A stretch of 64,000 bases of DNA, taken from NCBI RefSeq assembly GCF_013410775.1, contig NZ_JACCFH010000002.1, positions 62,001 to 126,000 of the forward strand. Direction: 5' to 3'. The notes under the pieces were generated by a model. It saw only the letters and a list, made by a program, of their open reading frames with translations. It searched no databases and was not told where the DNA came from. Source of the stretch: Sphaerotilus montanus (GTDB lineage: Bacteria > Pseudomonadota > Gammaproteobacteria > Burkholderiales > Burkholderiaceae_C). The position numbers were made by a program, and so were the translations under genes. Each line of letters begins with the position of its first letter. The first letter of the stretch is position 1. Below are positions 6,402 to 64,000 of this stretch, one piece after another.

Positions 6402-6425
6402 GAATTCAGTGAATCCAAGGGCTTT

Positions 6426-6449
6426 CCTGATTAGCAACGATCCTCAGCA
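6426..6449. repeat. Left terminal inverted repeat of the IS1595-type element
   Basis: Reads CCTGATTAGCAACGATCCTC followed by AGCA, and pairs with 7447-7470. The transposase stop codon (TAA on the minus strand at 6433-6431) lies inside this repeat. Confidence 0.85.
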
Positions 6450-7387
6450 TTCCCCCGAACGACCCGCTGAGCCCGAGGCTTGCACCGCGAGACATCGATG
6501 ATGAGCCGAGCCACCAACTCGCGCAGGTCGAACCGACGGTTGAAGCGGTAGGCGAACGCTGCCAGGTAGCTGCTGGCGTACTTGGGGTACTTGAACGCAT
6601 GGAACGCACCCGACAACGTCGTCTTCAGGTTGCCCAGCACCGTGTTGACCCAGGTGAACTCGGGCAGCTCGCGCGGCTTGCGCTGCCCCACCACGATCGG
6701 CGTGTGCAGACAGCCCGCGCTGGTGACCGCGGCGAAGCACCCCAGCCCGTCGCTGACCACCCGCGCTCCCGGCATCAGCGCCGCCTGCGCCCACTGGCCC
6801 ACCGCCTCCAGCGTGAAGCCGCTCACCGGCGCGAGCTTGACGTACTGCGGATGCCCCTGGTCATTGACCGAGACCGCCGCCACGAACGGCACCTTGTTCT
6901 CCGAACCCCGACCCGCCTTGCCGCCGCTGCGCTCCCCGCCGAGGTAGGCATCGTCGAGCTGCACCGTGCCGTCGAGCCGGTGCTGGCTCTCCCGCTCGGC
7001 CATCGCGTGCATGATCTTCTGGTGCATCAGCCACGCCGTCGGGTAGCTCACGCCCACCTGCCGCTTGAGCGCCAGCGCCGACAGCCCCGTCTTGGCCTGG
7101 CTGAGCAGGTAGATCGCCAGGAACCACGTTCTCAGCGGCAGCTTGGTGCTCGCGAACAGGCTGCCCGCGGTCAGCGAAGTCTGGTGGCGGCAGCCGTTGC
7201 ATTGATACAGCTTGCGTGCGCCCTGGCCCACCACGTAGTGCGCCGCAGTGCCGCAGCGCGGGCACTCGAAGCCCTGGGGCCAGCGTGCCTGCTTGACCGC
7301 CTCGGCGCATTGCTCTTCCGTGCCGAAGCTGCTCATGAACTCCGGCAGCGACATCCCTTGCTGGAACTGGATTCGGTTCATCGGCAT
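6431..7387 (-). CDS. IS1595-family (ISXO2-like) transposase
   Basis: The product is 318 aa. The N-terminal zinc ribbon reads CPRC and CNGC (about residues 42-72). It is followed by the typical SLTAGSLFASTKLPLRTWFL segment and a DDE/N-type catalytic core beginning at LDDAYLGGE, with VVSDGLGCF and a C-terminal YRFNRRFDL region. The protein catalyses cut-and-paste or copy-type movement of its own element. It is uninterrupted and ends within the left inverted repeat, so the element may still be active. Confidence 0.93.
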   Translation of the reverse strand: MPMNRIQFQQGMSLPEFMSSFGTEEQCAEAVKQARWPQGFECPRCGTAAHYVVGQGARKLYQCNGCRHQTSLTAGSLFASTKLPLRTWFLAIYLLSQAKTGLSALALKRQVGVSYPTAWLMHQKIMHAMAERESQHRLDGTVQLDDAYLGGERSGGKAGRGSENKVPFVAAVSVNDQGHPQYVKLAPVSGFTLEAVGQWAQAALMPGARVVSDGLGCFAAVTSAGCLHTPIVVGQRKPRELPEFTWVNTVLGNLKTTLSGAFHAFKYPKYASSYLAAFAYRFNRRFDLRELVARLIIDVSRCKPRAQRVVRGNAEDRC

Positions 7388-7446
7388 GTGCTCGCTCCTG
7401 CGCTTTGTCTGCCTTCTACGCTACGCCTGATCGTCGGCTAGGGCCT

Positions 7447-7470
7447 TGCTGAAGATCATTGCTAATCAGG
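7447..7470. repeat. Right terminal inverted repeat of the IS1595-type element
   Basis: The reverse complement reads CCTGATTAGCAATGATCTTC followed by AGCA, differing from the left end at two positions. The outermost base is at 7470. Confidence 0.85.
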
Positions 7471-50780: not shown

Positions 50781-50961
50781 GGCTGCTTCAGCACAAAATC
50801 TCCGTGAAAATGCAGCTTTAAGCAGCTTGAATGGCGCATGCACCTGCCGCCGGAAAAACTGATTCGTCATATCTGGTGCAATAAAAAAGGTGCGGCTGTG
50901 GCCCGCCCCCGACGCCAAGTCCTATCCCCCCGTCCTGCACCTCCTCCACTGCCCGCCTGCC

Positions 50962-51756
50962 ATGCGCCTGCGTTCCATTCCGTTTCTCACGCCGTGGTTG
51001 CATCAGCCGCGTCTTTGTGAATCGCCCCGCCTGCGGCTGTTCTGTCTGCCCTACGCGGGTGGCTCTGCCTCGATCTACCGGACCTGGCGTGCAGGATTGC
51101 CAGCCGATGTGGAGTTGTGCCCTATCCAGTTGCCAGGTCGCGAAGGACGCTTTGCAGAACCCTCCATGGACGACCCTGATGTGCTGCTGACGGAACTGCA
51201 CACGGCGATCAGGCCATGGCTGGACTGCCCCTTCGTGCTGATGGGCTACAGCATGGGCGGGCTGATCGCGCATGCGCTGGCGTGCCGGCTACAGTCGTCA
51301 GGCGGGCCTACCCCTGAGCGCCTGGTCGTGGCCGCCTGCGGCAGCCCGGACCACCCCGCACGGATCGATCCCGACCGAATGGATCACGCCGAGTTCACGG
51401 CCTACGTGCGCAGCCTGGGCGGTACCCCCGACGCCGTGTTCGAGCACGCGGAGTTGCTGGACATGCTGCTGCCGATGCTCAGGGCGGACTTCCGGCTGGT
51501 TCGGCGCCTGCGCGAAGCCGCCACGGCCTGGCCAGGGTGGCCGCGCCTGAGGTGTCCCATCACGGCCCTGGCGGCCCAGGACGACGAGCACGCCACGCCG
51601 CAGCAGGTGGCGCGCTGGGCGGATTTCACCCAAGGACTGCTGCACTGCACGAGCATCCCCGGAGGGCATTTTTCACTTTGGCAGCAACCTCAGTTGCTGA
51701 TGGACGCTGCATTGGGTGCCCCCGGGATCCGGTCCGGACAGGCTGTCACAGGATAG
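50962..51756 (+). CDS. Type II (editing) thioesterase
   Basis: The product is 264 aa from the ATG at 50962 (MRLRSIPFLTPWL); a GTG at 50890 would add 24 residues without family similarity, and neither start has a strong ribosome-binding site. It is an alpha/beta hydrolase of the external thioesterase family: LRLFCLPYAGGSASIYRTW near the N terminus, the nucleophile in GYSMGG, an Asp in QDDEHATP and the catalytic His in GGHFSLWQQ. Such enzymes clear misprimed or stalled acyl groups from carrier domains of PKS/NRPS lines and act in the cytosol. Its placement head-to-head with the first PKS gene suggests regulation with it. Confidence 0.92.
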   Translation: MRLRSIPFLTPWLHQPRLCESPRLRLFCLPYAGGSASIYRTWRAGLPADVELCPIQLPGREGRFAEPSMDDPDVLLTELHTAIRPWLDCPFVLMGYSMGGLIAHALACRLQSSGGPTPERLVVAACGSPDHPARIDPDRMDHAEFTAYVRSLGGTPDAVFEHAELLDMLLPMLRADFRLVRRLREAATAWPGWPRLRCPITALAAQDDEHATPQQVARWADFTQGLLHCTSIPGGHFSLWQQPQLLMDAALGAPGIRSGQAVTG

Positions 51757-51849: not shown

Positions 51850-52542
51850 ATGGTCACGCTACCCAGCACCCTTGCCCTGATCGATGACGATTCCGAATTC
51901 GTCGAATTCCTGGCCCAGTACCTGCGCGAACAGGGCATCAAGGTCGATGTCTTCCCGGACAGCGACGACCTGCTGACCACCGATGCACCGTATGGGTACG
52001 ATTTCTACGTGGTGGACCTGATGCTGCCGGGGGTCGACGGGATCCAGTTGATCCGACTGCTGCGGCGGCGCACCAATGTCGGCATCGTGGTGATCTCCGG
52101 CAAGGTCACGCCGGACGTGTTCCGGTCGGTCATCGACGCGCAGGCGGACATGTACCTGAGCAAGCCGGTGAGTTTCGAGCAGGTGCTGCTGACCATCCGG
52201 GCGATCTGCCGGCGCACGGCGGCTATGGCGCAGGTCAATTCGGCCTGGCAACTGGACCGGCGCGCCAGCCTGCTGATCGCACCGGACACGAGCCGCATAG
52301 AACTCAGCGGTGGTGACATGACCGTCATGGAGTGCCTGCTGGAAGCCCACGGCCAGCCAGTGGCGCGCGAAGTGCTGATCAAACGGCTGGGCCGCAACCC
52401 GAGTGGCGCCGACGATAACTGGCTGCACGGCACGATCTATCGGCTGCGTCGCCGCATCGAGCGGGCCACGGTGCTGCCAGTACCGCTGCAATCGGTCGCC
52501 AGAGTGGGCTACGAATTCAAGGCTGAACTGCGCGCCATCTGA
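51850..52542 (+). CDS. OmpR-type response regulator
   Basis: The product is 230 aa. The receiver domain (residues 8-120) has the acidic cluster IDDD, phospho-acceptor Asp56 in VVDLMLPG, Ser83 in VISGK and Lys105 in LSKPV. A winged-helix DNA-binding domain follows (about 140-228, ending in VARVGYEF). The likely partner is the histidine kinase encoded convergently 37 bp downstream. Sitting between the thioesterase and exporter genes, it is the best candidate for the cluster's own transcriptional regulator. The binding sites may be the repeated TGATCA-type motifs in the two large intergenic regions, which is inference. Confidence 0.93.
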   Translation: MVTLPSTLALIDDDSEFVEFLAQYLREQGIKVDVFPDSDDLLTTDAPYGYDFYVVDLMLPGVDGIQLIRLLRRRTNVGIVVISGKVTPDVFRSVIDAQADMYLSKPVSFEQVLLTIRAICRRTAAMAQVNSAWQLDRRASLLIAPDTSRIELSGGDMTVMECLLEAHGQPVAREVLIKRLGRNPSGADDNWLHGTIYRLRRRIERATVLPVPLQSVARVGYEFKAELRAI

Positions 52543-52579
52543 ACCCGGGCCTGGCGCTTCATCCGGCGCGGCATCCAGA

Positions 52580-54019
52580 TCAGATGGGCCGATCCTGCGG
52601 GATCGTGAGCCGCAGGTGCGCACCCGGTCTGCCAGATTCACCTGGGAGGATCTCGACGGTACCGCGGTGCAGTTCGGCCACACGTCGCACGATGTACAGC
52701 CCCAAACCCAGGCCGGTTCCGGTGCTTTCAGGGCCCCGCACCCCCCGCTCGAACGCCCGCGCCCTGAACCCCTCGGCAATGCCCCGCCCCTGATCGGAAA
52801 CCTCGAAGACGATCGCCAGCGGCTCCTCTCGCTCGCTCAGGCGCAGTACCACCGACGAGTTGGAGGGCGAGTACGCCAGCGCATTGACCAACAGGTTGCG
52901 TAATGCGAGCCGCATCAGCCCCAGATCAAATGCCGCTGTCCGCAGACCCGGGTCATGCTCCACCAGGATGCGCAGACGGGCCGACGGCATGATGTCGGCT
53001 AGGCACAGCTCGACCAGGGTCTCCAGATCCGACTCCACGAGGGCGAGCCGGCCGTCGGCTGACAGCAGCGTCGTGGCCGCCAGCGTGTTGTCCAGGATGC
53101 TGGTGATCTGCTGGATGACGTTGCGAGCCCGGTCCAGGCGGCCCACGAGGCGGGGCGCGAGGTCAGCCGGGGCCTCGGTCGCCACGGTCCGTGTGCTCTG
53201 CAAGGCGGCCGAGGCGTTGTTGAGCGGCTGGCGCACCTCGTGGGCGAGCAGGTTCAACATCTCGTCGCGCTCGCGCAGCAAGGACAGTAGCCGCTCGGAT
53301 TGCGCCTGGCTCTGGCGCTGGGACTGGCTGAGGCGTTCGATGTCGAGCTGGCGGGTCAGCTCGCGGGCATGCACGCCCTCCAACGTGATGCCGATGTAGG
53401 CGATGTTGCCGAATGCCGCCGTGAACATCATCACCAGCGTCAGAAGGACCGAGTTCGTGCTGCGGTCGAGGGTGAGGGCTTCGCCAGTTCCGAACAGCAT
53501 GTTCCAGATCCTCAGCGACAGCAGGATGGCCGCACACCCGTAAGCCATCGACATGGCGTGCGCGCTGGCACTGGCGCGCACGCGGCCGAGTCGACTCGAC
53601 ACGGCGCACAACCACAGCGATCCGATCAGCATCACGAGCACGACATAGAACGCGCGGTCCACCAGGCTGGTGCGTCGGCTGATCTCGAAGCCGATCATCA
53701 GGGCCACCAGAACGGCCAGTGCCCGTGGCCAGGCGATCGACTCTCCCAGGTGGTGGTGCATGGCCAAGGCACGCAGCATCGTGCCGGCGAACCCGAGCGC
53801 CACGCTCAGCAGCAGCAGGCCCGTGGGCAGTGGTGTGCCGTGCCGGACTGCGGCCAGGCTGATGAACAACCCCACGGCGATGTTGCCCGCCACCCAGATG
53901 CCCAGACGGACAGGGTCGTCCTGCTTGCGCAGGATGAACCACACCCCCAGCGGCAGCAGCACATAGAGCAGGCTTGCCACGAAGCCGATGGTGTGGGAAT
54001 CCAGCGAAGGAATAGACAT
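52580..54019 (-). CDS. Seven-transmembrane sensor histidine kinase
   Basis: The product is 479 aa. The N-terminal ~210 residues contain about seven hydrophobic segments with only short loops, forming a membrane-embedded sensor with no large periplasmic domain. A coiled-coil-like linker (SQSQRQSQAQSERLLSLL, about 231-248) precedes the H-box AHEVRQPLNN (His260) and the ATPase domain with LRNLLVNALAYSP (N box), DQGRG (G1) and GTGLGLGLYIVRR (G2). A sensor buried in the membrane suits hydrophobic or envelope-stress signals. It converges on the response regulator gene, and its start faces the exporter operon across a 317-bp gap. Confidence 0.93.
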   Translation of the reverse strand: MSIPSLDSHTIGFVASLLYVLLPLGVWFILRKQDDPVRLGIWVAGNIAVGLFISLAAVRHGTPLPTGLLLLSVALGFAGTMLRALAMHHHLGESIAWPRALAVLVALMIGFEISRRTSLVDRAFYVVLVMLIGSLWLCAVSSRLGRVRASASAHAMSMAYGCAAILLSLRIWNMLFGTGEALTLDRSTNSVLLTLVMMFTAAFGNIAYIGITLEGVHARELTRQLDIERLSQSQRQSQAQSERLLSLLRERDEMLNLLAHEVRQPLNNASAALQSTRTVATEAPADLAPRLVGRLDRARNVIQQITSILDNTLAATTLLSADGRLALVESDLETLVELCLADIMPSARLRILVEHDPGLRTAAFDLGLMRLALRNLLVNALAYSPSNSSVVLRLSEREEPLAIVFEVSDQGRGIAEGFRARAFERGVRGPESTGTGLGLGLYIVRRVAELHRGTVEILPGESGRPGAHLRLTIPQDRPI

Positions 54020-54336: not shown

Positions 54337-55983
54337 ATGCAGCAACTGAAGCGCTTTCTGACGCAAGAAGCGGGTGTGCCCAAGCGGCGCATTCTCGTGA
54401 TGTCACTGCTCACAGGAGCCTGCAACGCGCTCATGCTGGGCCTGCTCAACATGGCCGCGGCTCATGCCGGTGATTCGGATCGTGACAGCAGCCTTTTTGC
54501 TGTGTACGTGGTCGCGCTGGCACTGCATGCCTATGCGCAGCGACACTCGATGCTCGACGCGATGGGTGCGGTCGAGCACACCATCGAGCGTGTGCGGCTG
54601 CGCCTGACCGACAAGGTGCGCCGCGCGTCGCTGCACCTTGTCGAGCAGGCCGGCGGGCTTCCCGGCTTCTCCGCACTGACCCAGGACACCCAGGTCATCT
54701 CCCAGGCGGGCTCGCAGGTGGTCACGACGCTGCAGGCGCTGGTGACGCTGACCTTTTCAGTGCTCTACCTGGCTTGGCTGTCCCCACTGGCCTGCCTGGC
54801 GGTGGTGGTCGTGGTGGTCGGCTACATCATCGTGAGCAAAGTGCGCGACCCGGCCATCGCCTCCGCCATGAAGCAGGCCCACGAACAGGAAGTCACGGTG
54901 CAGCGCGCGATCTTGGACGTCGTGCAGGGCGTCAAGGAGCTGCAACTCAGCCGTCGCGAGCGCACTGGCCTGCGCACCTACCTGACCGACGTGGCGGCGC
55001 AGTCGCATGCCCACAAGCTGCAGGCCAACCTGGACACGGTTTTTGACCACCTGTTCGGCGGTCTGGTCTTCATGCTGCTGCTGCTGGCGGTGGTGTTCCT
55101 TCTGCCCATCGTGGTACCGAGTAGCAATGAGACCACGCACCAGGTAGTCGCCACCATGCTCTACATCCTCGGGCCGATCGGCGCGATCACCCAGGGCCTG
55201 GCTGGCATGGCGGCGGTGGAGGCCGGCATCAGCCACCTCTATGCGCTCGAAGCCCGATTGGATGCGGCCCTGGAGCCCCACCACCGTCGACCGACCGAGC
55301 CGCTGCACAGCTTCGACGAGATTCGCCTCGACGCCGTGCGCATGCGCTACCTTGACGCCAAAGGTGCGCCGCTGTTCACCTCCGGCCCGCATGACTTGCG
55401 CCTGCGCGCGGGCGAGACGGTCTTCATCGTCGGCGGCAACGGGGCGGGCAAGTCCACGCTGCTCAAGCTGCTCACCGGGCTGTATCCGGCAGAGGAGGGC
55501 TGCGTGCTGCTAGACGGCAAGCCGGTCGAACCACGAACGCTGGAGGCCTACCGCAGCCTGTACTCGACCGTCTTCACCGACTTCCACCTGTTCGACCGGC
55601 TCTACGGCTTGCCCGAGACCGTAGACGACGCGGTGGTCAACGCCTGGATCGAGCGCATGGGGCTGGCGGGCAAGACACGCTGCGAGGGCGGGCGTTTCAC
55701 GAACACCGACCTCTCGACCGGCCAGCGCAAGCGCCTGGCGTTCATCGCTGCAGTGCTCGAAGACCGGCCGATCTGCCTGTTCGACGAACTGGCGGCCGAC
55801 CAGGATCCCGTGTTCCGCCGGCGCTTCTACGAGGAATTGCTGCCTGAACTCCAGGCCCAGGGACGGACGCTGCTGATCGTCTCGCATGACGACGCCTACT
55901 TCGACTGCGCCGATCGACTGCTCAGACTCGATGCCGGGCACATCGTGGCCGACGAGCGCCGCCATCCCGGGGAGCCAGCATGA
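54337..55983 (+). CDS. Cyclic-peptide-type ABC half-exporter (PvdE/SyrD-like), first copy
   Basis: The product is 548 aa, fused membrane and ATPase domains. An exporter-type membrane domain (about 20-310, including the very hydrophobic CLAVVVVVVGYIIV) is followed by an ATPase with GGNGAGKST (Walker A, about 366), a signature LSTGQRKRL (about 461) and CLFDELAADQDP (Walker B plus D-loop). The AADQDP form is typical of siderophore and lipopeptide exporters such as PvdE and SyrD. It probably moves the finished peptide or an acylated precursor across the inner membrane. Its stop overlaps the next gene by 4 bp, so the two probably pair as a heterodimer. Confidence 0.92.
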   Translation: MQQLKRFLTQEAGVPKRRILVMSLLTGACNALMLGLLNMAAAHAGDSDRDSSLFAVYVVALALHAYAQRHSMLDAMGAVEHTIERVRLRLTDKVRRASLHLVEQAGGLPGFSALTQDTQVISQAGSQVVTTLQALVTLTFSVLYLAWLSPLACLAVVVVVVGYIIVSKVRDPAIASAMKQAHEQEVTVQRAILDVVQGVKELQLSRRERTGLRTYLTDVAAQSHAHKLQANLDTVFDHLFGGLVFMLLLLAVVFLLPIVVPSSNETTHQVVATMLYILGPIGAITQGLAGMAAVEAGISHLYALEARLDAALEPHHRRPTEPLHSFDEIRLDAVRMRYLDAKGAPLFTSGPHDLRLRAGETVFIVGGNGAGKSTLLKLLTGLYPAEEGCVLLDGKPVEPRTLEAYRSLYSTVFTDFHLFDRLYGLPETVDDAVVNAWIERMGLAGKTRCEGGRFTNTDLSTGQRKRLAFIAAVLEDRPICLFDELAADQDPVFRRRFYEELLPELQAQGRTLLIVSHDDAYFDCADRLLRLDAGHIVADERRHPGEPA

Positions 55984-57617
55984 AAAGCCACCTGCTGGAC
56001 TTCCTGCGCCGCGAGTCCGGGCAGCGGCGGGCTCCGATGCTGGTGGCCATGGTGCTGTCGGGGCTGGCCGAGGGCCTGGTGATCGTGCTGGCCAACGTCG
56101 GGGCCAACTCGGCGAGCGAAGGTCTCACGCTCACCCGTTCGGTGCTGCTGACGGTGTACCTGATTGGATTGACCACCTGGGTGGTCAGCCTGCGCCGGGC
56201 GCTCAAGCAGAGTTTCACCGCCTCCGAGCAGGCGCTGGAGCGTGTCAAGACCCGCCTGGCCACCCGGCTGCTGCAGGCGGACCTGCTCTACGTCGAGCGC
56301 CAAGCGGCCAGTGGCCGTTTCTCGCTGCTCAGCCAGGACACTCGGCTTGTAGCAGACGCCGTCATGCGGGGCCTGTACTGCCTGCAGTCGCTGGCGTTGT
56401 TCGCGGCCAGCAGCGTCTACATGCTCTGGAAAGATCCGGTCGCTTTCGGACTGGTCGCGCTGGTGTTCGTGCTGGCGATTCCGAAGCTGATGCACAACTA
56501 CCAGCAGGCGACCGCCGAGACACGGCTGTCGGCCGAGCGCGAAGGCCGCTTCTTCGCCCTGTTCGGCGACCTGGTGCGGGGCTTCAAGGAGGTCAAGCTG
56601 CACCGTCCACGCAGTGATGCCCTCCAGGCAGAACTGGTCGAGCGGGCCCGAGCAGCCCACGCGCCCCGCCATCACATCCACCGGCGCACCGTCGATGACC
56701 TGCAGTTTTCCAACGGCATCTTCTACGTGCTGCTGGCCGCGCTGGTGTTCCTGTTGCCTGAGATCTGGTCGAGCCGTGGCGACACCGTCGAGCAGACACT
56801 CACGACGGTGCTCTCGCTCATGGGGCCGCTGACAGCGTTCGCCACCACGCTGCCGATGCTGGCGCGTGCCGAGGCGGCGGTGGCAGGGCTGTACGCGCTG
56901 GAGGCCGAGATCGATGCCGCCGCCCAAGACTGCGAGGCTGAGGATGATTCGGATCCTCAAGCATCGGACACACCCACCTTCGAGCGGCTGGCCCTTCAAG
57001 GTGTGAGCTTCCACTACACCGACGATGCGGGGGACGTCACCTTCTGCTCCGGTCCCCACGATCTGGAGATCCGCCGCGGCGAACTTGTCTTCATCGTTGG
57101 GGGCAACGGTTCAGGCAAATCCACGCTGCTCAAGCTGCTCACGGGCCTGTACGCACCGGTGACGGGCGAGTTGCTGCTGGATGGCCAGATCGTCGACGCC
57201 GACGCACGCCAAGACTGGCGAGAACTCTTCTCGATCGTCTTCACCGACTTCCATCTGTTCGAGCGGCTGCACGGCCTGGACAACGTCGATCCTAGGGAGG
57301 TGAAGCGCTGGCTGGCCGTGATGGGCCTGGCGCACAAGACCCGCTTCAGGAATGGCCGCTTCACGCAGACCTCGCTCTCGACCGGCCAGCGCAAGCGCCT
57401 GGCCTTCATCGTCGCGATGCTGCGCGACAAGCCGGTGTGCATCCTCGACGAGGTGGCCGCCGACCAGGATCCCGAGTTCCGCCGCCGCTTCTACCGCGAG
57501 CTGCTGCCCGGGCTGCGCGAGCGTGGCACCACCGTCATCGTCGTCTCGCATGACGACGCCTATTTCGACTGCGCCGACCGGCTCATCCGCTTGCAGGATG
57601 GCCGCATCGTCGCCTGA
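55980..57617 (+). CDS. Cyclic-peptide-type ABC half-exporter, second copy
   Basis: The product is 545 aa with the same layout as the preceding gene: exporter membrane domain (about 15-310), GGNGSGKST (about 373), LSTGQRKRL (about 467) and CILDEVAADQDP. Both copies keep the catalytic Glu after the Walker B Asp, so neither ATPase site looks degenerate. The pair look like a duplicated ancestral gene that has since diverged through much of the membrane half. The ATGA junction with the first copy indicates coupled translation. It leads an accessory membrane gene set after a 33-bp gap. Confidence 0.92.
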   Translation: MKSHLLDFLRRESGQRRAPMLVAMVLSGLAEGLVIVLANVGANSASEGLTLTRSVLLTVYLIGLTTWVVSLRRALKQSFTASEQALERVKTRLATRLLQADLLYVERQAASGRFSLLSQDTRLVADAVMRGLYCLQSLALFAASSVYMLWKDPVAFGLVALVFVLAIPKLMHNYQQATAETRLSAEREGRFFALFGDLVRGFKEVKLHRPRSDALQAELVERARAAHAPRHHIHRRTVDDLQFSNGIFYVLLAALVFLLPEIWSSRGDTVEQTLTTVLSLMGPLTAFATTLPMLARAEAAVAGLYALEAEIDAAAQDCEAEDDSDPQASDTPTFERLALQGVSFHYTDDAGDVTFCSGPHDLEIRRGELVFIVGGNGSGKSTLLKLLTGLYAPVTGELLLDGQIVDADARQDWRELFSIVFTDFHLFERLHGLDNVDPREVKRWLAVMGLAHKTRFRNGRFTQTSLSTGQRKRLAFIVAMLRDKPVCILDEVAADQDPEFRRRFYRELLPGLRERGTTVIVVSHDDAYFDCADRLIRLQDGRIVA

Positions 57618-57650: not shown

Positions 57651-58592
57651 ATGACCACTCCCAAGGAATGGTTCGACGACCTCAAGGCCGATGCAGGCAC
57701 CGAGGCCGACGCCCCCGAGGTGCCACTGACGCGCCGCCAGCGTTTCTCGCTCTGGCTGCACGACAACACGCCGTCCTTCATCGTCACGAATCTGCTGCTG
57801 GTCCTGTTGCTGATCTTTCTGTGGAACCGCGTGGTCGTGGTGGTGCCACCGGGGCAGACCGGAGTGCTGTTCCGCCTGTTCTCAGGCACTGAGGTGGACC
57901 GGGTCTACGGAGAAGGTCTCTACCTGATCAGTCCGCTCAACACGATGAACCTGTACGAGACGCGCAAGCAGGTGACGCTGCACGAGTTCGAGGTGCTCAC
58001 TGCCAAGGGCCTGAGCGTGAAACTCGCGCTGGCGATCCGCTACCAGCCCGAGGTCGAGATGCTGGGCGTGCTGCACCAGCGCATCGGCCCGGACTACGCC
58101 CAGCGCGTGATCATCCCGCAGGTCGAGTCCGTCATGCGCAAGCAGCTTGGCCAATACGTCGCCGAGGACGTCTACACCAACAAGGACGGGCTGCTCACGC
58201 GCGCGATCCTGGCTGCGCTGGATGAAGTAGGGCGCAACTTCATCCAGGTCGAGGACATCATCATCCGCAGCATCCAACTGCCCGACAAGCTCAAGGCGGC
58301 GATCGAGGACAAGCTGACCCAGGAGGAGATGCTCAAGTCCTACGAGTTCCGCATGGAGACCGCGCGCAAGGAGGCCGAGCGGCTGACGATCGAGGCCGAG
58401 GGGCACAAGAAGCACAACGCCATCGTGGCCGAGACGCTGACGGACAAGGTGCTGCAGCGCGAGCAGATCGCGGCGATGCGGGATCTGGCCAAGTCGCCCA
58501 ATGCCAAGACGCTGATCATGGGCAGCGGCCAGAGCGGCGCACCGGGCACGGCCCAGGGCGATCCCAAGCTGATGATCAACGTCACGCCATGA
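57651..58592 (+). CDS. SPFH / band-7 (prohibitin-like) membrane protein
   Basis: The product is 313 aa. A cytosolic N-terminal stretch (1-40) is followed by one membrane span (about 43-63, FIVTNLLLVLLLIFLW). The SPFH domain comes next (VVVPPGQTGVLFRLFSG through about 220), then a charged helix (RKEAERLTIEAEGHKKH) typical of stomatin and prohibitin oligomerisation regions. Family members form large rings or membrane microdomains and often tether or control proteases and transporters. Here it sits between the exporter pair and a binding-protein-like gene, so a scaffold around the export machinery is a reasonable guess. Its stop overlaps the next ATG by 4 bp. Confidence 0.88.
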   Translation: MTTPKEWFDDLKADAGTEADAPEVPLTRRQRFSLWLHDNTPSFIVTNLLLVLLLIFLWNRVVVVVPPGQTGVLFRLFSGTEVDRVYGEGLYLISPLNTMNLYETRKQVTLHEFEVLTAKGLSVKLALAIRYQPEVEMLGVLHQRIGPDYAQRVIIPQVESVMRKQLGQYVAEDVYTNKDGLLTRAILAALDEVGRNFIQVEDIIIRSIQLPDKLKAAIEDKLTQEEMLKSYEFRMETARKEAERLTIEAEGHKKHNAIVAETLTDKVLQREQIAAMRDLAKSPNAKTLIMGSGQSGAPGTAQGDPKLMINVTP

Positions 58593-60628
58593 AGCGCCTG
58601 CTCGTGATGGCGGCCGCGGTGGCGGTCGGCCTGTTCGTGTGGAGCCACTGGCCGGCGGAGGACTATGCCGCGCTGGCGGATGCCCGTGACCAGCACGCGC
58701 TCGACACCCAGGCCGACATCGTCGTGGCGGCGGTGGCCGACCCGCAGCAGTCGGACTACGTCAAGGGCATCGAGCTGGCGGTGACGCAACTCAACGAGCG
58801 ACCCGAGAAGCTGCTGGGGCGGCTGGTACGGCTGCGCATTGAGCAAGGCAGCGCAGACCCGGTGGCCGAAAACCGGCTGGTGCAGCGCCTGGTCAGCGAC
58901 GAACGGGTGGTGGCCGTGCTGGGTCACCGCGCATCGAGCCTGGCGGTGCCGGCCTCGCTGGTCTACGAGGCGGCCCGCATGGTATTCCTGCCGCCCTTCG
59001 CCACCAAGAAGAGCCTCACCGGACACGACTTCCAGTACGTCTTCCGCATGGCCCCGAGCAGCCCGGTGATGGCCGAGCAGCTCGCCAGCCTGACGGCGCT
59101 GCTGGGCCACGGTCGGGTCGCCGTGCTGCATGCCCGCGACGACTACAGCCGCGAGCTGGCCTTCCTGTTCGAAGACTCGGCCGTGGCGCGCGGCGTGCGG
59201 GTGACACAACGGGCCTCGTTCCTCGCCACCGACGAGGACTACCGCAGCCTGGTGGCACAGCTCCGCGCCAAGCCCTTCGATGCGGTGTTCCTGTCGGCCT
59301 CCAGCGGGCCGGGGGCTCGCATGGTGCAACAGTTGCGCGAACTCGGTGTGCAGGTACCCATCATCGGCATCGATTCCATGAACTCGCGCGAGTTCAAGGA
59401 CGCGGCGGGGGCGGCCGGTCACAACATCATCACCCCGGTGCTCTACCGCAGCAACCAGACCGGCTGGCGCAATGCCGCGTTTGTCGAGCGTTTCCGTGCC
59501 GCACACGGGCGCGAGCCGGACCACAACGCGGCCCAGGGCTACGACTCGATGCTGCTGCTGGCGCGCGCCATCGAGCTGGCCAAGACTACGCGCACGTCGG
59601 CCGTGCAGTCGGCGCTGCGCTTCATGCCGTACTGGATCGGCGTGACCGGGCTGCATGCCTTCGACGCCCGTGGGGAGCTGCGGGCCAAGCGCTACGAGTT
59701 CCAGCAACTGCTGGCGGGCGAGTGGCAGCCGCTGCCGGGGCTGCACCTGCGCTACCAGCTGGAGCGCGCCGAGGCCGAGGCGCGCCTCACGGGCGAACCG
59801 CTGCCGGCGGGCTTCAGCCAGTCCTTCCGTGCCGAGGCGTCGCTCGAAGAGACGGCTACGCTGCAGTTCGAGATGGCGCGGCGCATCTTGCCGATCCAGC
59901 GCCTGGGGGTGCTCATCGCCTCGCGCGACCCCGACACGCTGGAAGAGGTTACCCAGCAGGTGCAGCGCCTGGCCAAGGCCACCGGCGTGGCCATCGAGCA
60001 CTGCGTGATGCGGGACGAGGCACTCGATGACGACCTGGCGCACTGCCTGCAGACGCTGACCGCCCCGTCACCGTCGCAGCCCCAGGCGCTGATGCTGGCC
60101 CGCTTCGACGACCTCAGCTTCGTGGATACCGTGGCCGTGGGCGCGAAGCTGCGCGCCGCGCCACTGCCGGTGTTCGCCATCAGCGCAGCGGGCAACCGCG
60201 TCATGCCGCCGGGGCTGGCGGTGTTCGTCGACGAGGTCGGGCGGCAAGACTACTTCGGCCCGGCGGTCAAGAACATCGAGCGCATGGTGGCGCGTCAGGT
60301 GGTGGACGGCGTGATCGGCGGGCTGGTCAACCTGCCAGCGGTCAAGGTCGATCTGCAGCGCCTGCTGGCCCTCGGACACCAGAGCAACCCGGCGCTGCTG
60401 AACCTGTTCGCCGAGGAGATGCCGCCGGTGGCGGCCACGTTCGCGCTGCCCAAGCAGGCGCGTCAGCCGGTGGCGGCGCCTGAAGCCGCTTCGGCCGCCT
60501 CGGAAGCTGCCAGCGCGGACGCTGCGGCCAGTGCACCTGATGCGGCGTCGGCCGCGTCAACACCGACCTCGGCCCCTTCGTCGGCCCCGCTCCCCGCCTC
60601 GGCGCCCTCCAGCTCTTCTGATCGGTAA
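58589..60628 (+). CDS. Large periplasmic-binding-like protein (type I fold), Ala-rich tail
   Basis: The product is 679 aa. The N-terminal hydrophobic stretch (LLVMAAAVAVGLFVW) is a membrane anchor or signal. Residues about 40-375 match branched-chain-amino-acid/ABC-type binding proteins (DIVVAAVADPQQSDYVKGIE, GHRASSLAVPAS, DAVFLSASSGPGARMV, GYDSMLLLARAIELAK). A second region (about 430-620) looks like another partial binding lobe. The last ~60 residues are a low-complexity Ala/Ser/Pro tail. There is no accompanying permease for uptake, so it probably serves as a sensor or as an adaptor to the SPFH protein or exporters rather than as a transporter subunit. The length is well above the usual ~380 residues for this family. 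Confidence 0.78.
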   Translation: MKRLLVMAAAVAVGLFVWSHWPAEDYAALADARDQHALDTQADIVVAAVADPQQSDYVKGIELAVTQLNERPEKLLGRLVRLRIEQGSADPVAENRLVQRLVSDERVVAVLGHRASSLAVPASLVYEAARMVFLPPFATKKSLTGHDFQYVFRMAPSSPVMAEQLASLTALLGHGRVAVLHARDDYSRELAFLFEDSAVARGVRVTQRASFLATDEDYRSLVAQLRAKPFDAVFLSASSGPGARMVQQLRELGVQVPIIGIDSMNSREFKDAAGAAGHNIITPVLYRSNQTGWRNAAFVERFRAAHGREPDHNAAQGYDSMLLLARAIELAKTTRTSAVQSALRFMPYWIGVTGLHAFDARGELRAKRYEFQQLLAGEWQPLPGLHLRYQLERAEAEARLTGEPLPAGFSQSFRAEASLEETATLQFEMARRILPIQRLGVLIASRDPDTLEEVTQQVQRLAKATGVAIEHCVMRDEALDDDLAHCLQTLTAPSPSQPQALMLARFDDLSFVDTVAVGAKLRAAPLPVFAISAAGNRVMPPGLAVFVDEVGRQDYFGPAVKNIERMVARQVVDGVIGGLVNLPAVKVDLQRLLALGHQSNPALLNLFAEEMPPVAATFALPKQARQPVAAPEAASAASEAASADAAASAPDAASAASTPTSAPSSAPLPASAPSSSSDR

Positions 60629-60634
60629 GAAGTC

Positions 60635-60928
60635 ATGTCCTCACTACCTCCGTATGTCATGCCCCTGCTGTATGGCTTTGGCAGCCTGTTCGTGGCGCTC
60701 ATGGGGCGCAATCGCAAGTGGGGCTTCTGGGGCTATTTCTGGGCGTCGTTGCTGATGTCACCCGTGCTGGGTCTGCTGTTCGTGCTGGCAGGCGACAAAC
60801 CTGAGCGCAAGCCGAAAGCGCCCAAGTCCGCGCTCCAGCCTTCGCCAGTGGCTGCAACGCCAGCGGTGGGCGTCCCCGCAGCCAGCGTGAAGCCCGTTGC
60901 CACATCAGCCCCGGCGGTCAAGCCGTGA
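60635..60928 (+). CDS. Small membrane protein with Pro/Ala-rich tail
   Basis: The product is 97 aa. Two hydrophobic segments (about 5-21 and 32-52) separated by a short basic loop (GRNRKWG) form a hairpin in the membrane. A basic stretch (KPERKPKAPK) and a Pro/Ala/Val-rich tail follow. I do not recognise a family. It starts 6 bp after the binding-protein gene and is clearly in the same operon. Confidence 0.65.
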   Translation: MSSLPPYVMPLLYGFGSLFVALMGRNRKWGFWGYFWASLLMSPVLGLLFVLAGDKPERKPKAPKSALQPSPVAATPAVGVPAASVKPVATSAPAVKP

Positions 60929-61149
60929 GCGCCACTGAAGGCTCGGGGCGGGAGACAAGGGAGCACGGCGGACCACCTCCAGGACATCCCCAGTTTCCTC
61001 CACCCACCCCGAAAGGACTGCGCATCCGCAAGAAGAAATCCGCTCATACACCTGTCGAGCTGGGTCTGCTCGAACCCCTGGCGCTGACGCCGGAGCCGGA
61101 GTCGACCGCTCTTTCTCTTCTCTCCTCCCAACCTCTGGAGACCATTTTC

Positions 61150-61728
61150 ATGAGTCAAACCGCTGACCACAACACCATCGACGCCGAAGCCACGGTCGTC
61201 GAACCCTCTGCGCCCGCCACCCCCGCTCCCGTGCTGGTCTCTGACGTGGTGCGTTCCGACCGGCTGCTGCTGGCCAACGACATCGTCAAGAACCACGTCA
61301 TCGCCGCCACCGGCATCAGCCTGATCCCGATCCCGGGGGTCGATCTAGCCGCCATCATGGGCATCCAGGTCAAGATGGCACACAGTCTGTGCAAGCTCTA
61401 TGACGTGCCCTTCAAGGAGAAGCTGGTGCGTTCGCTGCTGACCTCGCTGGTCAGCAGTGCGGGTGCAGTGCTCGCCATGACCGGGCTGGCCAGCCTGGCC
61501 AAGGCCGTGCCGGTGCTCGGCTCGATCGCCGGTGCAGCCGGCGTGTCGGCCACCTCGGCGGCGATGACCTACGCCACCGGCAAGGTGCTGACCAAGCACT
61601 TCGAGACGGGCGGCACGATCGACACCTTCGACCCGGTCCAGTTCAAGGAAATGTTCAAGGCCAAGGTCAAGGAAGGCGCCGAAGTCGTCAAGTCGCTCAA
61701 GCCTGACGCTGCACCCGCGTCCGCCTGA
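61150..61728 (+). CDS. DUF697-family membrane-associated protein
   Basis: The product is 192 aa. The start is set at 61150 because CTGGAG lies 9 bp upstream; an in-frame GTG at 60925, overlapping the previous stop, would add 75 low-complexity residues and remains possible, so 60929-61149 is otherwise just leader. Residues about 30-165 match the DUF697 pattern: IVKNHVIAATGISLIPIPGVDLAAI, then hydrophobic helices (SSAGAVLAMTGLASLAKAVP, GSIAGAAGVSATSAAMTYA) and HFETGGTIDTFDP. The family is of unknown function, membrane-associated and often found with GTPase-like or stress proteins. It follows the SPFH and binding-protein genes, so it probably belongs to the same membrane assembly. Confidence 0.8.
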   Translation: MSQTADHNTIDAEATVVEPSAPATPAPVLVSDVVRSDRLLLANDIVKNHVIAATGISLIPIPGVDLAAIMGIQVKMAHSLCKLYDVPFKEKLVRSLLTSLVSSAGAVLAMTGLASLAKAVPVLGSIAGAAGVSATSAAMTYATGKVLTKHFETGGTIDTFDPVQFKEMFKAKVKEGAEVVKSLKPDAAPASA

Positions 61729-61884
61729 CCTTCTGAAACCCTGAGGCCATGATCAGGGCCTCAGGGTCGCCGGCACCACCCAGGCTTCCCACGCACCGCC
61801 ACACGGTGCCGGCACTTCGCCTGCCTGTCTCTTGCACCTTTCCCCCCGCTTCCACCCACTTCGCTCCTGTTCCGGAGGTCTGCC

Positions 61885-62973
61885 ATGTCCGCTCGTACTT
61901 CGTCGCGCACCGCGCTGCGCCGTCTCCTTCCCCTGTCGGTGGCCACCGCCACGCTGCTGCTGGCTGGCTGCAGCGGCCCGGCTGCGCTGCGCTCGGGCTA
62001 CGTCGACTATTCGCACGCCCAGGCCCAGGTCGGCAACCAGCAGACGCTGCTGAATCTGGCACGCATCCGCAATGGCCACCCGCCGTACTTCCTGCAGATG
62101 GGTGCCATCACCGCCAGCTACAGCTTCACCCGCGGCACCAATGGTTCGGCCTCGCACACACTCGGCACCATGCCGGGCGCCTTGCCCGAGATGTTCACGC
62201 GCGCCCTTGGCCTAAGCGGCAGCGCCACCGAGGCGCCGATGTTCAACTTCGCGCCGCTGAGCGGCCCCGGCTTCTCGGCAGTGATCATGAAGCCGATCGA
62301 TCCGCGCACGTTCTCGGGTCTGGCGATGCAAGGCTTCTCGGCAACGGCGCTCATGCGCATGCTCGCCGACGAGGTCACGCTGACGAACGCGAGTGGTCAG
62401 AAAACGGTGTTGCGCAACGGCTTTGACGCCCAGGACAGCGATAACTATGGCGACTTCCTGAGGCTGGTGGAGGCGCTGCAGACGCTGCAGTACGCACGCG
62501 CCCTGGTCACGGGCACCGACGCCGGGGGCACGACGCTACGCATCACGGCAGACGATCGGGCTGGCGCGGTGTTGCAGCGCCTGGCCACGCGAGACGGAGC
62601 CAAGGCCCAGTTCAAGACGCTGGGCAATCAAGCCCTGGCAGGCGGCTTCAGTGTGGATGTCAAGCTGCGCACCTTCGTAGGCACCCTGTATGCGATGGCC
62701 TACGACGGTGCGGGCGCTGACGCGCTGCCCGCGGCGCTGCGCGAGAGCCTGCCGGAAGGCCAGCGCGACGCGGTGCTGCGCATCGAAGCAGCGTCCGATC
62801 TGACCGAGCCGGAAGCGGCAAGCGTGGACTATGCCGGGCGCAAGTACGTCATCTCGGACAAGGCCGGCTCGCTGCGTTACCGCACCACCTTCCAGGGCCT
62901 GCAGTTCGTCTTCGCCCAGACTGAACTCAATCCCGGTCAGCTCCCGCAGGCGTCCGTCATCCAGATGCGCTGA
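61885..62973 (+). CDS. Outer-membrane-type lipoprotein of unknown function
   Basis: The product is 362 aa. A lipoprotein signal peptide ends in LLLAGC, with Cys29 as the lipidation site and SG following, consistent with transport to the outer membrane. The mature part has no recognised domain. It contains a LLNLARIRNGHPPYFLQ segment and an apparently beta-rich body (for example TTLRITADDRAGAVLQRLA). As the only lipoprotein beside the exporter genes, it may connect inner-membrane export to the outer membrane or bind the product; that is inference. It is in the same direction as the surrounding operon, 60 bp before the next NRPS gene. Confidence 0.75.
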   Translation: MSARTSSRTALRRLLPLSVATATLLLAGCSGPAALRSGYVDYSHAQAQVGNQQTLLNLARIRNGHPPYFLQMGAITASYSFTRGTNGSASHTLGTMPGALPEMFTRALGLSGSATEAPMFNFAPLSGPGFSAVIMKPIDPRTFSGLAMQGFSATALMRMLADEVTLTNASGQKTVLRNGFDAQDSDNYGDFLRLVEALQTLQYARALVTGTDAGGTTLRITADDRAGAVLQRLATRDGAKAQFKTLGNQALAGGFSVDVKLRTFVGTLYAMAYDGAGADALPAALRESLPEGQRDAVLRIEAASDLTEPEAASVDYAGRKYVISDKAGSLRYRTTFQGLQFVFAQTELNPGQLPQASVIQMR

Positions 62974-63032: not shown

Positions 63033-64000
63033 ATGCGCGCACCTCACCTGACCGTTCACCCGCTCTCTTCGTCCCAGCGCGAGATCTGGTTCGACCAGAT
63101 GCTGCACGAGGGGGTGGCGCTGTACAACATCGGTGGCTGGGTGGACCTGCCCGGGGAGATTGACGTCGAGATGTTCCGCACGGCGGTACAGATGCTGATC
63201 AGGCGGCATGACGCGCTGCGTCTGGTGCTGATGGACACCGCGGACGAGGACGGCATGCCGCTGCAGAAGGTGGTCGAGCCTTGGGCTGCGGAGGTGCCGC
63301 TGCACGACTTCTCGGGTGAAGCGGATCCGAGAGGTGCGGCGCACGCCTGGATGCAGGCCCGCTTCGAGGAGCCCTTCACGCTGATCGGGCAGCCGCTGTG
63401 GCGCTACGACCTGGTCAAGATGGGGCCCAGCGAGTACGGCTGGCTGCTGCAGTACCACCACCTGATCGTCGATGGCTGGGGCGTGGCACTGATCAACCGC
63501 TCGCTGGCGGAGATCTATTCCAGTCTGGCCGAGCAGGCCTGGAGCGAGATCGCGCCGAGTCCGTCGTACACGGCGTTCATCGCCAGTGACCGGGAGTACG
63601 TGGAGTCGCCCGCGTTCGAGCGGGACCGGGCGTACTGGTTGGCCCAGTACGCCAATGGCGCACCTGAGCCGTTGCTGCAGGCTCGGCACCATGCCACTGC
63701 ACCGAAGAGTGAAGGAACCGCGGGCAGCGCGGTGCAGTCGATGCACCTGCCTCGGGCGATGTACCGTGAACTGGAGGCGCTGGCGGCCGAGCAAGGCGCC
63801 AGCGTGTTCCATGTGCTGCTGGGAGCGTTGTACGTGTACTTCACCCGTACCGGGCAGCGCGAGGACTTCGCCGTGGGCCTGCCGGTGCTCAACCGCAGCA
63901 ATGCGCAGATGCGGGCAACTGCGGGCCTTTTCGTCGGGGTGACGCCAGCACACTTCCAGTTCGGGCGCGAGATCACGTTCGTGGAGCTGATCCGAGGAAT
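63033..64000 (+). CDS. NRPS, N-terminal condensation domain (3' end outside window)
   Basis: Starts at ATG 63033 (MRAPHLTVHPLSSSQREIWF) and stays open to the window edge, giving 322 residues. It is a condensation domain: SSSQREIWFDQ (C1-type motif), RRHDALRLVL (C2), QYHHLIVDGWG (catalytic HHxxxDG at about 143) and ATAGLFVGVTPA near the end. There is no docking or carrier domain before it, so this gene starts a synthetase with condensation: it could acylate the first residue with a fatty acid, or receive a chain from another protein. It shows that the pathway needs at least one more synthetase than the minus-strand operon encodes. Confidence 0.92.
   Translation, partial: MRAPHLTVHPLSSSQREIWFDQMLHEGVALYNIGGWVDLPGEIDVEMFRTAVQMLIRRHDALRLVLMDTADEDGMPLQKVVEPWAAEVPLHDFSGEADPRGAAHAWMQARFEEPFTLIGQPLWRYDLVKMGPSEYGWLLQYHHLIVDGWGVALINRSLAEIYSSLAEQAWSEIAPSPSYTAFIASDREYVESPAFERDRAYWLAQYANGAPEPLLQARHHATAPKSEGTAGSAVQSMHLPRAMYRELEALAAEQGASVFHVLLGALYVYFTRTGQREDFAVGLPVLNRSNAQMRATAGLFVGVTPAHFQFGREITFVELIRG

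Follow-up and report, generated by a model that had tools for sequence, protein, structure and literature searches.

An SPFH and DUF697 gene set recurs with one branch of cyclic-peptide ABC exporters, often beside NRPS/PKS genes

Introduction

We show here that genes for an SPFH protein, a small DUF697 protein and a two-span membrane protein, often together with a Liv-type periplasmic binding protein, recur as a set, mostly in the company of one branch of cyclic-peptide ABC exporters. Reading from gene content and neighbourhood, we propose that they form an accessory membrane module for this separate exporter branch, in which an SPFH ring would organise the exporter; we give this reading about an even chance. 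To our knowledge, how peptides made by non-ribosomal peptide synthetases and polyketide synthases (NRPS/PKS) leave Gram-negative cells without harm is poorly understood. The starting point was a 64,000-nt stretch of Sphaerotilus montanus (contig NZ_JACCFH010000002.1, contig positions 62,001-126,000), called "the window" below. A first-pass annotation had connected five of its genes with peptide export. That link is strongly supported by the conservation of the set with a cyclic-peptide exporter branch, often beside NRPS/PKS genes, but the exporters are not of the PvdE/SyrD-like type it had assumed, and the lipoprotein it had included is not a regular member.

Results

The window locus

All five genes described by the annotation were recovered as open reading frames, preceded by two ABC genes of the TIGR01194 family and followed by an NRPS gene of 7,052 aa (Table 1). 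Both ABC genes score above the cut-off of this cyclic peptide export model (286.2 bits), and the locus combines an SPFH protein, a small DUF697 protein, a two-span protein and a module-branch exporter, the four parts by which we define the module. The downstream NRPS opens with a condensation domain and has six A-domain motifs in our motif map. The type II thioesterase belongs to a protein cluster with members in 21 loci; this count takes in the window and two loci on repeat contigs. Neither the small protein nor the lipoprotein matched a Pfam or NCBIfam family above cut-off.

Table 1. Features of the module locus in the window.
Feature	Position	Strand	Evidence or remark
Five NRPS/PKS genes	10759-50328	-	Profile matches and motif map
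Type II thioesterase of the cluster	50890..51756	+	Thioesterase 139.7 bits
Response regulator and kinase-type gene	51850-54019		Directly upstream of the exporters
ABC half-exporter 1	54337..55983	+	TIGR01194 338.7 bits; module branch
ABC half-exporter 2	55980..57617	+	TIGR01194 344.0 bits; family and branch as half-exporter 1
SPFH / prohibitin-type protein, 313 aa	57651..58592	+	Band_7 87.5 bits (cut-off 23.6)
Liv-type periplasmic binding-like protein, 679 aa	58589..60628	+	Peripla_BP_6 130.5 bits (cut-off 31.7), residues 53-361
Small two-span protein, 97 aa	60635..60928	+	Homologues in SPFH loci; hydropathy
Small DUF697 protein	61150..61728 (ORF opens GTG 60925)	+	DUF697 45.1 bits (cut-off 27.7); codon-position GC; start probable
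Hairpin, DUF697-lipoprotein gap	61738..61767	+	Fold z -4.5
Lipoprotein, 362 aa, optional component	61885..62973	+	Lipobox by eye; L172 homologue
NRPS start, gene continues past the window	63033..64000	+	Condensation 199.3 bits

Several features of the wider region were also recorded. The downstream NRPS gene, which runs on into stretch L009, contains internal repeats, with identities of up to 99.6% across 1,583 bp and 97% across 2.6 kb, which suggest recent module duplication or conversion. Identical 1,046-bp copies carrying an IS1595-type transposase gene lie at 6425-7470 of the window and, beyond it, at 153073-154118 of contig C2; the two copies flank the NRPS/PKS cluster in inverted orientation, as in a composite mobile element. 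A 5.9-kb repeat of 97% identity is found on both sides of the region (about 6718-12630 of L012 and 177594-183519 of contig C2). Upstream of the cluster (13356-19931 of L012 and 3-2744 of the window), genes for DUF499, DUF3780, a DUF1156-methyltransferase and a PLD-helicase stand in a row that matches one PADLOC model set.

Proteins of the module

The window SPFH protein scores well above the Band_7 cut-off and so carries this domain, which lies behind a single N-terminal transmembrane segment (residues 48-66 by hydropathy). With the SPFH family profile, the nearest PDB entry is prohibitin-2 (E 1.1e-28), prohibitins coming first and HflC next. The arrangement of an SPFH domain behind one N-terminal span is common to prohibitin and HflK/HflC assemblies; by analogy with the topology of HflC and prohibitin, the SPFH domain of the module protein would lie outside the cytoplasm. 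HflK and HflC have FtsH as their partner, whereas the genomic partner of the module protein is an ABC exporter, and its score with the HflC model (TIGR01932, 19.9 bits) is far under the cut-off of 134.4, which sets it apart from HflC itself.

The binding-like protein has an N-terminal hydrophobic segment by hydropathy, followed by its Peripla_BP_6 domain and a C-terminal region in which Pfam finds nothing. Its PDB matches included 4mlc (1.8e-46) and leucine-binding protein (6.8e-17). The annotation had described it as lacking a permease, which agrees with our scan: among nine window proteins, there was no importer permease and no separate importer ATPase. It therefore shares the binding-protein fold with Liv-type amino-acid importers but differs from them in these missing partners and in the fusions seen among its relatives. 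In two loci (L075, L079), TSP3 repeats and an OmpA domain form part of the same polypeptide as the binding protein, a fusion that would anchor it to peptidoglycan. In Azospirillum argentinense (L031, 5874-9722), a Peripla_BP_6 domain near the module is fused to a mechanosensitive-channel domain; this gene is also close to an IcmF-related gene and an ABC-SPFH-ABC set. A binding protein is present in 32 of the 47 SPFH loci described below, four of these positives being weak matches (74-78 bits) to large Azospirillum proteins, and absent from 15, seven of which are named alphaproteobacteria including Tistrella.

The small protein of 97 aa has two spans by hydropathy, as first described, and belongs to a family of 52-101 aa with homologues in 35 of the 47 SPFH loci, the window counted. 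The assignment of the next gene to DUF697 also stood, but its start is probably ATG 61150 and not GTG 60925, because GC3 is lower in the first 225 bases of the reading frame (0.63) than in the remainder (0.86) and because the relatives align from about position 61150. With this probable start, 221 bp separate the small gene from the DUF697 gene and 156 bp separate the latter from the lipoprotein gene, so that the description of five tightly packed genes holds for the first three.

An AlphaFold model of the DUF697 protein from position 61150 is all helical (mean pLDDT 81.5), and in a Foldseek search with it no PDB structure reached E 0.001. The sole PDB sequence match of the DUF697 profile, at E 0.073, is not credible. 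The window DUF697 protein alone, as query against genome contigs, retrieved no relative. In the YcjX-YcjF pair, a GTPase is paired with a DUF697 protein. The module proteins have the Pfam DUF697 domain in common with YcjF and its kin, but they are short and form a separate high-scoring class, and the nine window proteins scanned include no GTPase gene or domain partner for DUF697. In seven loci (L120, L123, L129, L135, L136, L170 and L174), mostly of giant sulfur bacteria and their relatives, a gene of a MACPF-hemopexin family immediately precedes the small DUF697 gene, the family assignment being checked by Pfam in three of the seven. This pair is possibly a pore-former and its partner or immunity protein.

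The gap between the DUF697 and lipoprotein genes contains an 11-pair hairpin (-23.6 kcal/mol) that none of 200 shuffles equalled; it is followed by no T-run and is not among the terminator-like sites found. The lipoprotein has the lipobox LLAGC, recognised by eye. Although it was first taken as part of the set, it accompanies the set in just one other locus, L172 of a Chromatiaceae MAG, where a homologue of 43% identity lies near the module. L172 contains all parts of the window set, and its 20 kb hold a DegT-type aminotransferase-methyltransferase gene and no NRPS/PKS match. As a marker, the lipoprotein gave distant matches only, in 7/200 family genomes and 10/398 phylum genomes with the window's own included, and there was no module part near three distant plasmid homologues in the stretches examined; we therefore dropped it as a defining part. 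Its AlphaFold model, made from two sequences, was unusable (mean pLDDT 41.3).

Co-occurrence of the set across genomes

A tblastn search of plasmids with the DUF697 protein yielded 18 records. Nine of the 18 neighbourhoods were examined, and in all nine the SPFH protein, the small protein and a module-type exporter were matched. Annotation or profile matches also placed NRPS/PKS genes in the plasmid loci of Skermanella, two Azospirillum brasilense, Tistrella and Rhodobacteraceae SC52; in the Azospirillum loci L029 and L031-L033 there were none in the 15-20 kb examined on each side.

We then have a genome-wide view from 398 genomes of the phylum, searched with an alignment of the DUF697 proteins of the plasmid loci and the window. 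With up to seven best candidates scored per genome, at least 64 genomes matched; 20 matches in 17 genomes reached 121 bits or more, which we call the small DUF697 class, and the rest were at 66 bits or less. The SPFH subfamily (E 1e-25 or better, up to six best candidates scored per genome) gave at least 18 matches in 17 of the 398 genomes, with a profile built partly from sequences of the genomes it was searched against. Among these best candidates, both proteins occurred in 16 genomes, SPFH only in G202, DUF697 only in G378 and neither in 380. In 14 of the 16, the two genes share a contig and are no more than about 10 kb apart, and in G251 and G255 they are on separate contigs. The strength of this reciprocal test is that, among the best candidates, almost no SPFH protein of the module kind was found without DUF697.

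The neighbourhoods of 17 high-class loci (16 genomes, the window's genome excluded) were compared with those of 21 controls (20 low-scoring DUF697 loci and one borderline at 66 bits), with flanks of at most about 10 kb in either direction, as far as the contigs reached, and with profiles built in this analysis. The high-class loci contained SPFH in 14, the small protein in 10, the binding protein in nine, a module-type exporter in six and an NRPS/PKS match in 11. Counting these proteins other than NRPS/PKS as core parts, 16/17 loci had one or more of them, and 17/17 had a core part or NRPS/PKS. At the same thresholds, the controls had core parts in 0/21 and weak NRPS/PKS matches in 2/21, in a comparison that favours the high class for borderline parts since the profiles were enriched with members of the tested loci. 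Together with the reciprocal SPFH/DUF697 test, this comparison leads us to reject a chance neighbourhood.

A search of genome contigs, many of them short, pointed in the same direction: among the best 80 of 278 DUF697 relatives, 37 had a core part nearby and 51 a core part or NRPS/PKS, and 29 had neither, seven of these lying behind a MACPF-type gene. After eight repeat loci (six with SPFH) were dropped, 47 SPFH loci including the window remained, four of them Azospirillum near-copies (L029, L031-L033); most were found through DUF697 as anchor, so that its presence there is by design. SPFH-bearing loci come from Gamma-, Beta- and Alphaproteobacteria, Magnetococcales, Desulfobacterales, an Acidobacteria MAG and anammox-type MAGs. 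Gene order varies widely among loci, and set membership is kept. In the stretches examined, 32 of the 47 had a module-type exporter, 22 an NRPS/PKS match and 37 either; L026 and L027 add NRPS/PKS by annotation only. An exporter without NRPS/PKS match was found in 15 of the 47, two of these having an annotated NRPS at the edge.

The first-pass annotation had named a wide occurrence of the five genes without any NRPS or exporter as one observation that would count against its reading. In the stretches examined, 10 of the 47 SPFH loci lack both an NRPS/PKS match and a module-type exporter: three of these have other large ABC exporters, three stretches are shorter than 11 kb and four are 17 kb or more. 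Most copies are thus accompanied by an exporter, but the set also occurs outside NRPS clusters, and on the counts over the 47 loci we reject a strictly NRPS-bound device. The conserved co-occurrence with exporters that had been proposed as a check is borne out, as a reshuffled set kept across phyla, with one exporter branch and often with NRPS/PKS. The small DUF697 class without SPFH in the stretch accounts for 52 further loci, with NRPS/PKS matches in 17 and an exporter in two. A TolC-type family, one member of which was checked by Pfam, occurs in nine loci, one contig being counted twice.

The exporter branch

The 398 genomes were searched with TIGR01194 at E 1e-60, scoring up to three best candidates per genome so that counts are lower bounds, and gave at least 79 matches in at least 63 genomes. 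Among these best candidates, 22 matches score no higher than 348 bits, and 19 of them come from SPFH-module genomes; 57 score above 348 bits, and 56 of them come from genomes without the module, the remaining one being on another contig of the module genome G393. At least 13 of the 17 SPFH genomes have a TIGR01194 match; the other four are G310, G361 and G392, whose other large ABC exporters score below every NCBIfam cut-off listed, and G202. The adjacency of SPFH and exporter genes is not constant, because the two are on different contigs in G271, G275, G286, G294 and G334, the SPFH gene is on a contig of its own in G255, and the exporter is about 77 and 45 kb away in G243 and G475, respectively.

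We built a maximum-likelihood tree of 68 exporters, 48 from module loci or genomes (six of them, from L206, L207 and L211, more than 10 kb from module parts) and 20 others chosen from 60 to span the scores; module exporters in reading frames over 1,000 aa and one 413-aa fragment were left out. Known members of the TIGR01194 family include PvdE, SyrD and YojI. Eighteen exporters of the PvdE/SyrD/YojI type, assigned from score bands and not from names, formed one clade (support 100/99) with none of the 48 module rows inside. One module exporter, that of L030, has a very long branch and is placed next to this clade, so that the module label needs two changes on the tree, against 17.6 when shuffled (0/500). 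The two window exporters and that of L172 form a group of their own (100/100) outside the clade, which refines the earlier description of the window pair as PvdE/SyrD-like. The module exporters share with PvdE, SyrD and YojI the family, the half-exporter build and a frequent NRPS/PKS context, but they stand outside that clade and are accompanied by SPFH, DUF697 and the small protein. No PDB entry matched the exporter at 1e-30.

Distances between SPFH proteins correlate with those between exporters (r 0.73, n=26, 0/1000 permutations; computed after removal of five near-copies and of proteins at least 1,000 aa long), a correlation that is also expected from mere co-inheritance.

Discussion

Based on these findings, we infer from the sequences that the module acts in export, and we suggest a possible manner. 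The SPFH protein, being of the prohibitin/HflC type, may assemble into a ring or cage at the periplasmic side of the inner membrane and there surround or organise the ABC exporter, with the DUF697 and two-span proteins as its putative membrane partners. The periplasmic binding protein could capture or sense the peptide on its exit from the ABC pump. An amphipathic product would in this way be confined during release and passed to an outer-membrane step, sparing the inner membrane; in the window, the lipoprotein may be an added outer-membrane part. A wider version of this scheme, which we put forward tentatively and consider possible but on the doubtful side, is that a prohibitin-type SPFH cage would house an ABC exporter instead of a protease, in many cases together with a binding protein of its own, as a periplasmic chamber into which non-ribosomal peptides and further amphipathic products are released, in several phyla, the didemnin cluster included.

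The main rival of the exporter-organising reading is envelope protection. Phage-shock proteins keep the inner membrane intact, and the module could do likewise under a membrane-active product, with the exporter just sharing the operon. We judge this rather unlikely. A general stress device would not be expected to be restricted to one exporter branch or to show correlated SPFH and exporter distances, and the DUF697 class is well separated by score from the other DUF697 proteins of the 398 genomes, even though protection would suit the seven loci with small DUF697 genes directly behind MACPF-type genes, the fusion of a binding domain to a mechanosensitive channel near the module in A. argentinense, and the loci in which the set is without NRPS/PKS matches. 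The restriction to one exporter branch and the correlation of distances lead us to favour export with an SPFH ring over pure envelope protection.

Product sensing, in which the binding protein would report periplasmic product to the two-component pair and the SPFH ring would be a platform only, seems improbable to us. The response regulator and kinase-type gene do stand directly upstream of the window exporters, a response-regulator/kinase gene lies directly 3' of the binding-protein gene in L172, and a binding-protein fold with importer genes absent among the proteins scanned would be in keeping with such a sensor; however, 15 of the 47 SPFH loci are without a binding protein, and that of the window has no signalling domain by Pfam.

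It is very improbable, in our estimate, that the set is a scaffold for the megasynthases themselves. The idea comes from cluster GI13 of Thalassobaculum sp. OXR-137, for which the accessible portion of the report describes an ABC exporter and then a prohibitin gene beside NRPS/PKS genes, and its authors suggest a possible interaction of prohibitins, in their capacity as scaffolding proteins, with the NRPS/PKS cluster (PMC12016528). GI13 has the exporter and prohibitin gene beside NRPS/PKS in common with the module, but it is one cluster only, and that portion of PMC12016528 makes no mention of DUF697, small or binding proteins. Against such a scaffold, the SPFH domain would lie outside the cytoplasm if it follows HflC and prohibitin, and 15 SPFH loci have an exporter and no NRPS/PKS match in the stretch (two with an annotated NRPS at the edge). 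That the genes are passengers of a mobile cluster with no common role, as the identical inverted IS1595-type copies around the window cluster might suggest, is scarcely credible given their co-occurrence across several phyla despite changed gene order and the genome-wide association seen in the neighbourhood and SPFH/DUF697 tests.

The module sets this exporter branch apart, provides marker genes by which NRPS/PKS clusters of this kind can be found, and gives a genomic setting to the small DUF697 class. We found no paper on the combination of DUF697 and SPFH in open-access PMC.

A copy of the module lies in what is very probably a cluster with a known product. On plasmid pTM3 of Tistrella mobilis KA081020-065, the DUF697, small-protein, exporter and SPFH genes are found at about 665975-670138 of the record, following a type II thioesterase gene (665186-665971) and preceding an RND pump and membrane-fusion gene and a bimodular NRPS (C-A-T-C-A-T, 674941-681312); beyond the last NRPS gene is an Rce1-like CAAX gene (346 aa, 735243-736283). 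The available excerpts of PMC10811503 describe a didemnin cluster in which DidA is bimodular, DidJ is a type II thioesterase and DidK is a CAAX homologue whose catalytic residues begin at 203. In strain L17, according to the same excerpts, the cluster is chromosomal and 87-100% identical to the reported one; 19 flanking ORFs, grouped as regulator, hydrolases, transporters and hypotheticals and including eight transporters and eight hypothetical proteins, were examined, and didJ and didK were chosen for knockout (PMC10811503). Because DidA-, DidJ- and DidK-like genes are placed as published there, we consider it very probable, though not fully certain, that the pTM3 cluster is the didemnin cluster. 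It resembles the module loci in that the DUF697, small-protein, exporter and SPFH genes are all present, here flanked by the thioesterase gene and the first NRPS gene, and, unlike the window, it has no binding protein or lipoprotein match. Since gene deletion and product imaging have been published for the didemnin cluster, a role of the SPFH protein in secretion should be directly testable there. Of additional note, a TIR-domain gene matching ThsB (239.7 bits; 15924-17066 of L213, equal to 729824-730966 of pTM3) directly follows the last NRPS gene of this didemnin-type cluster.
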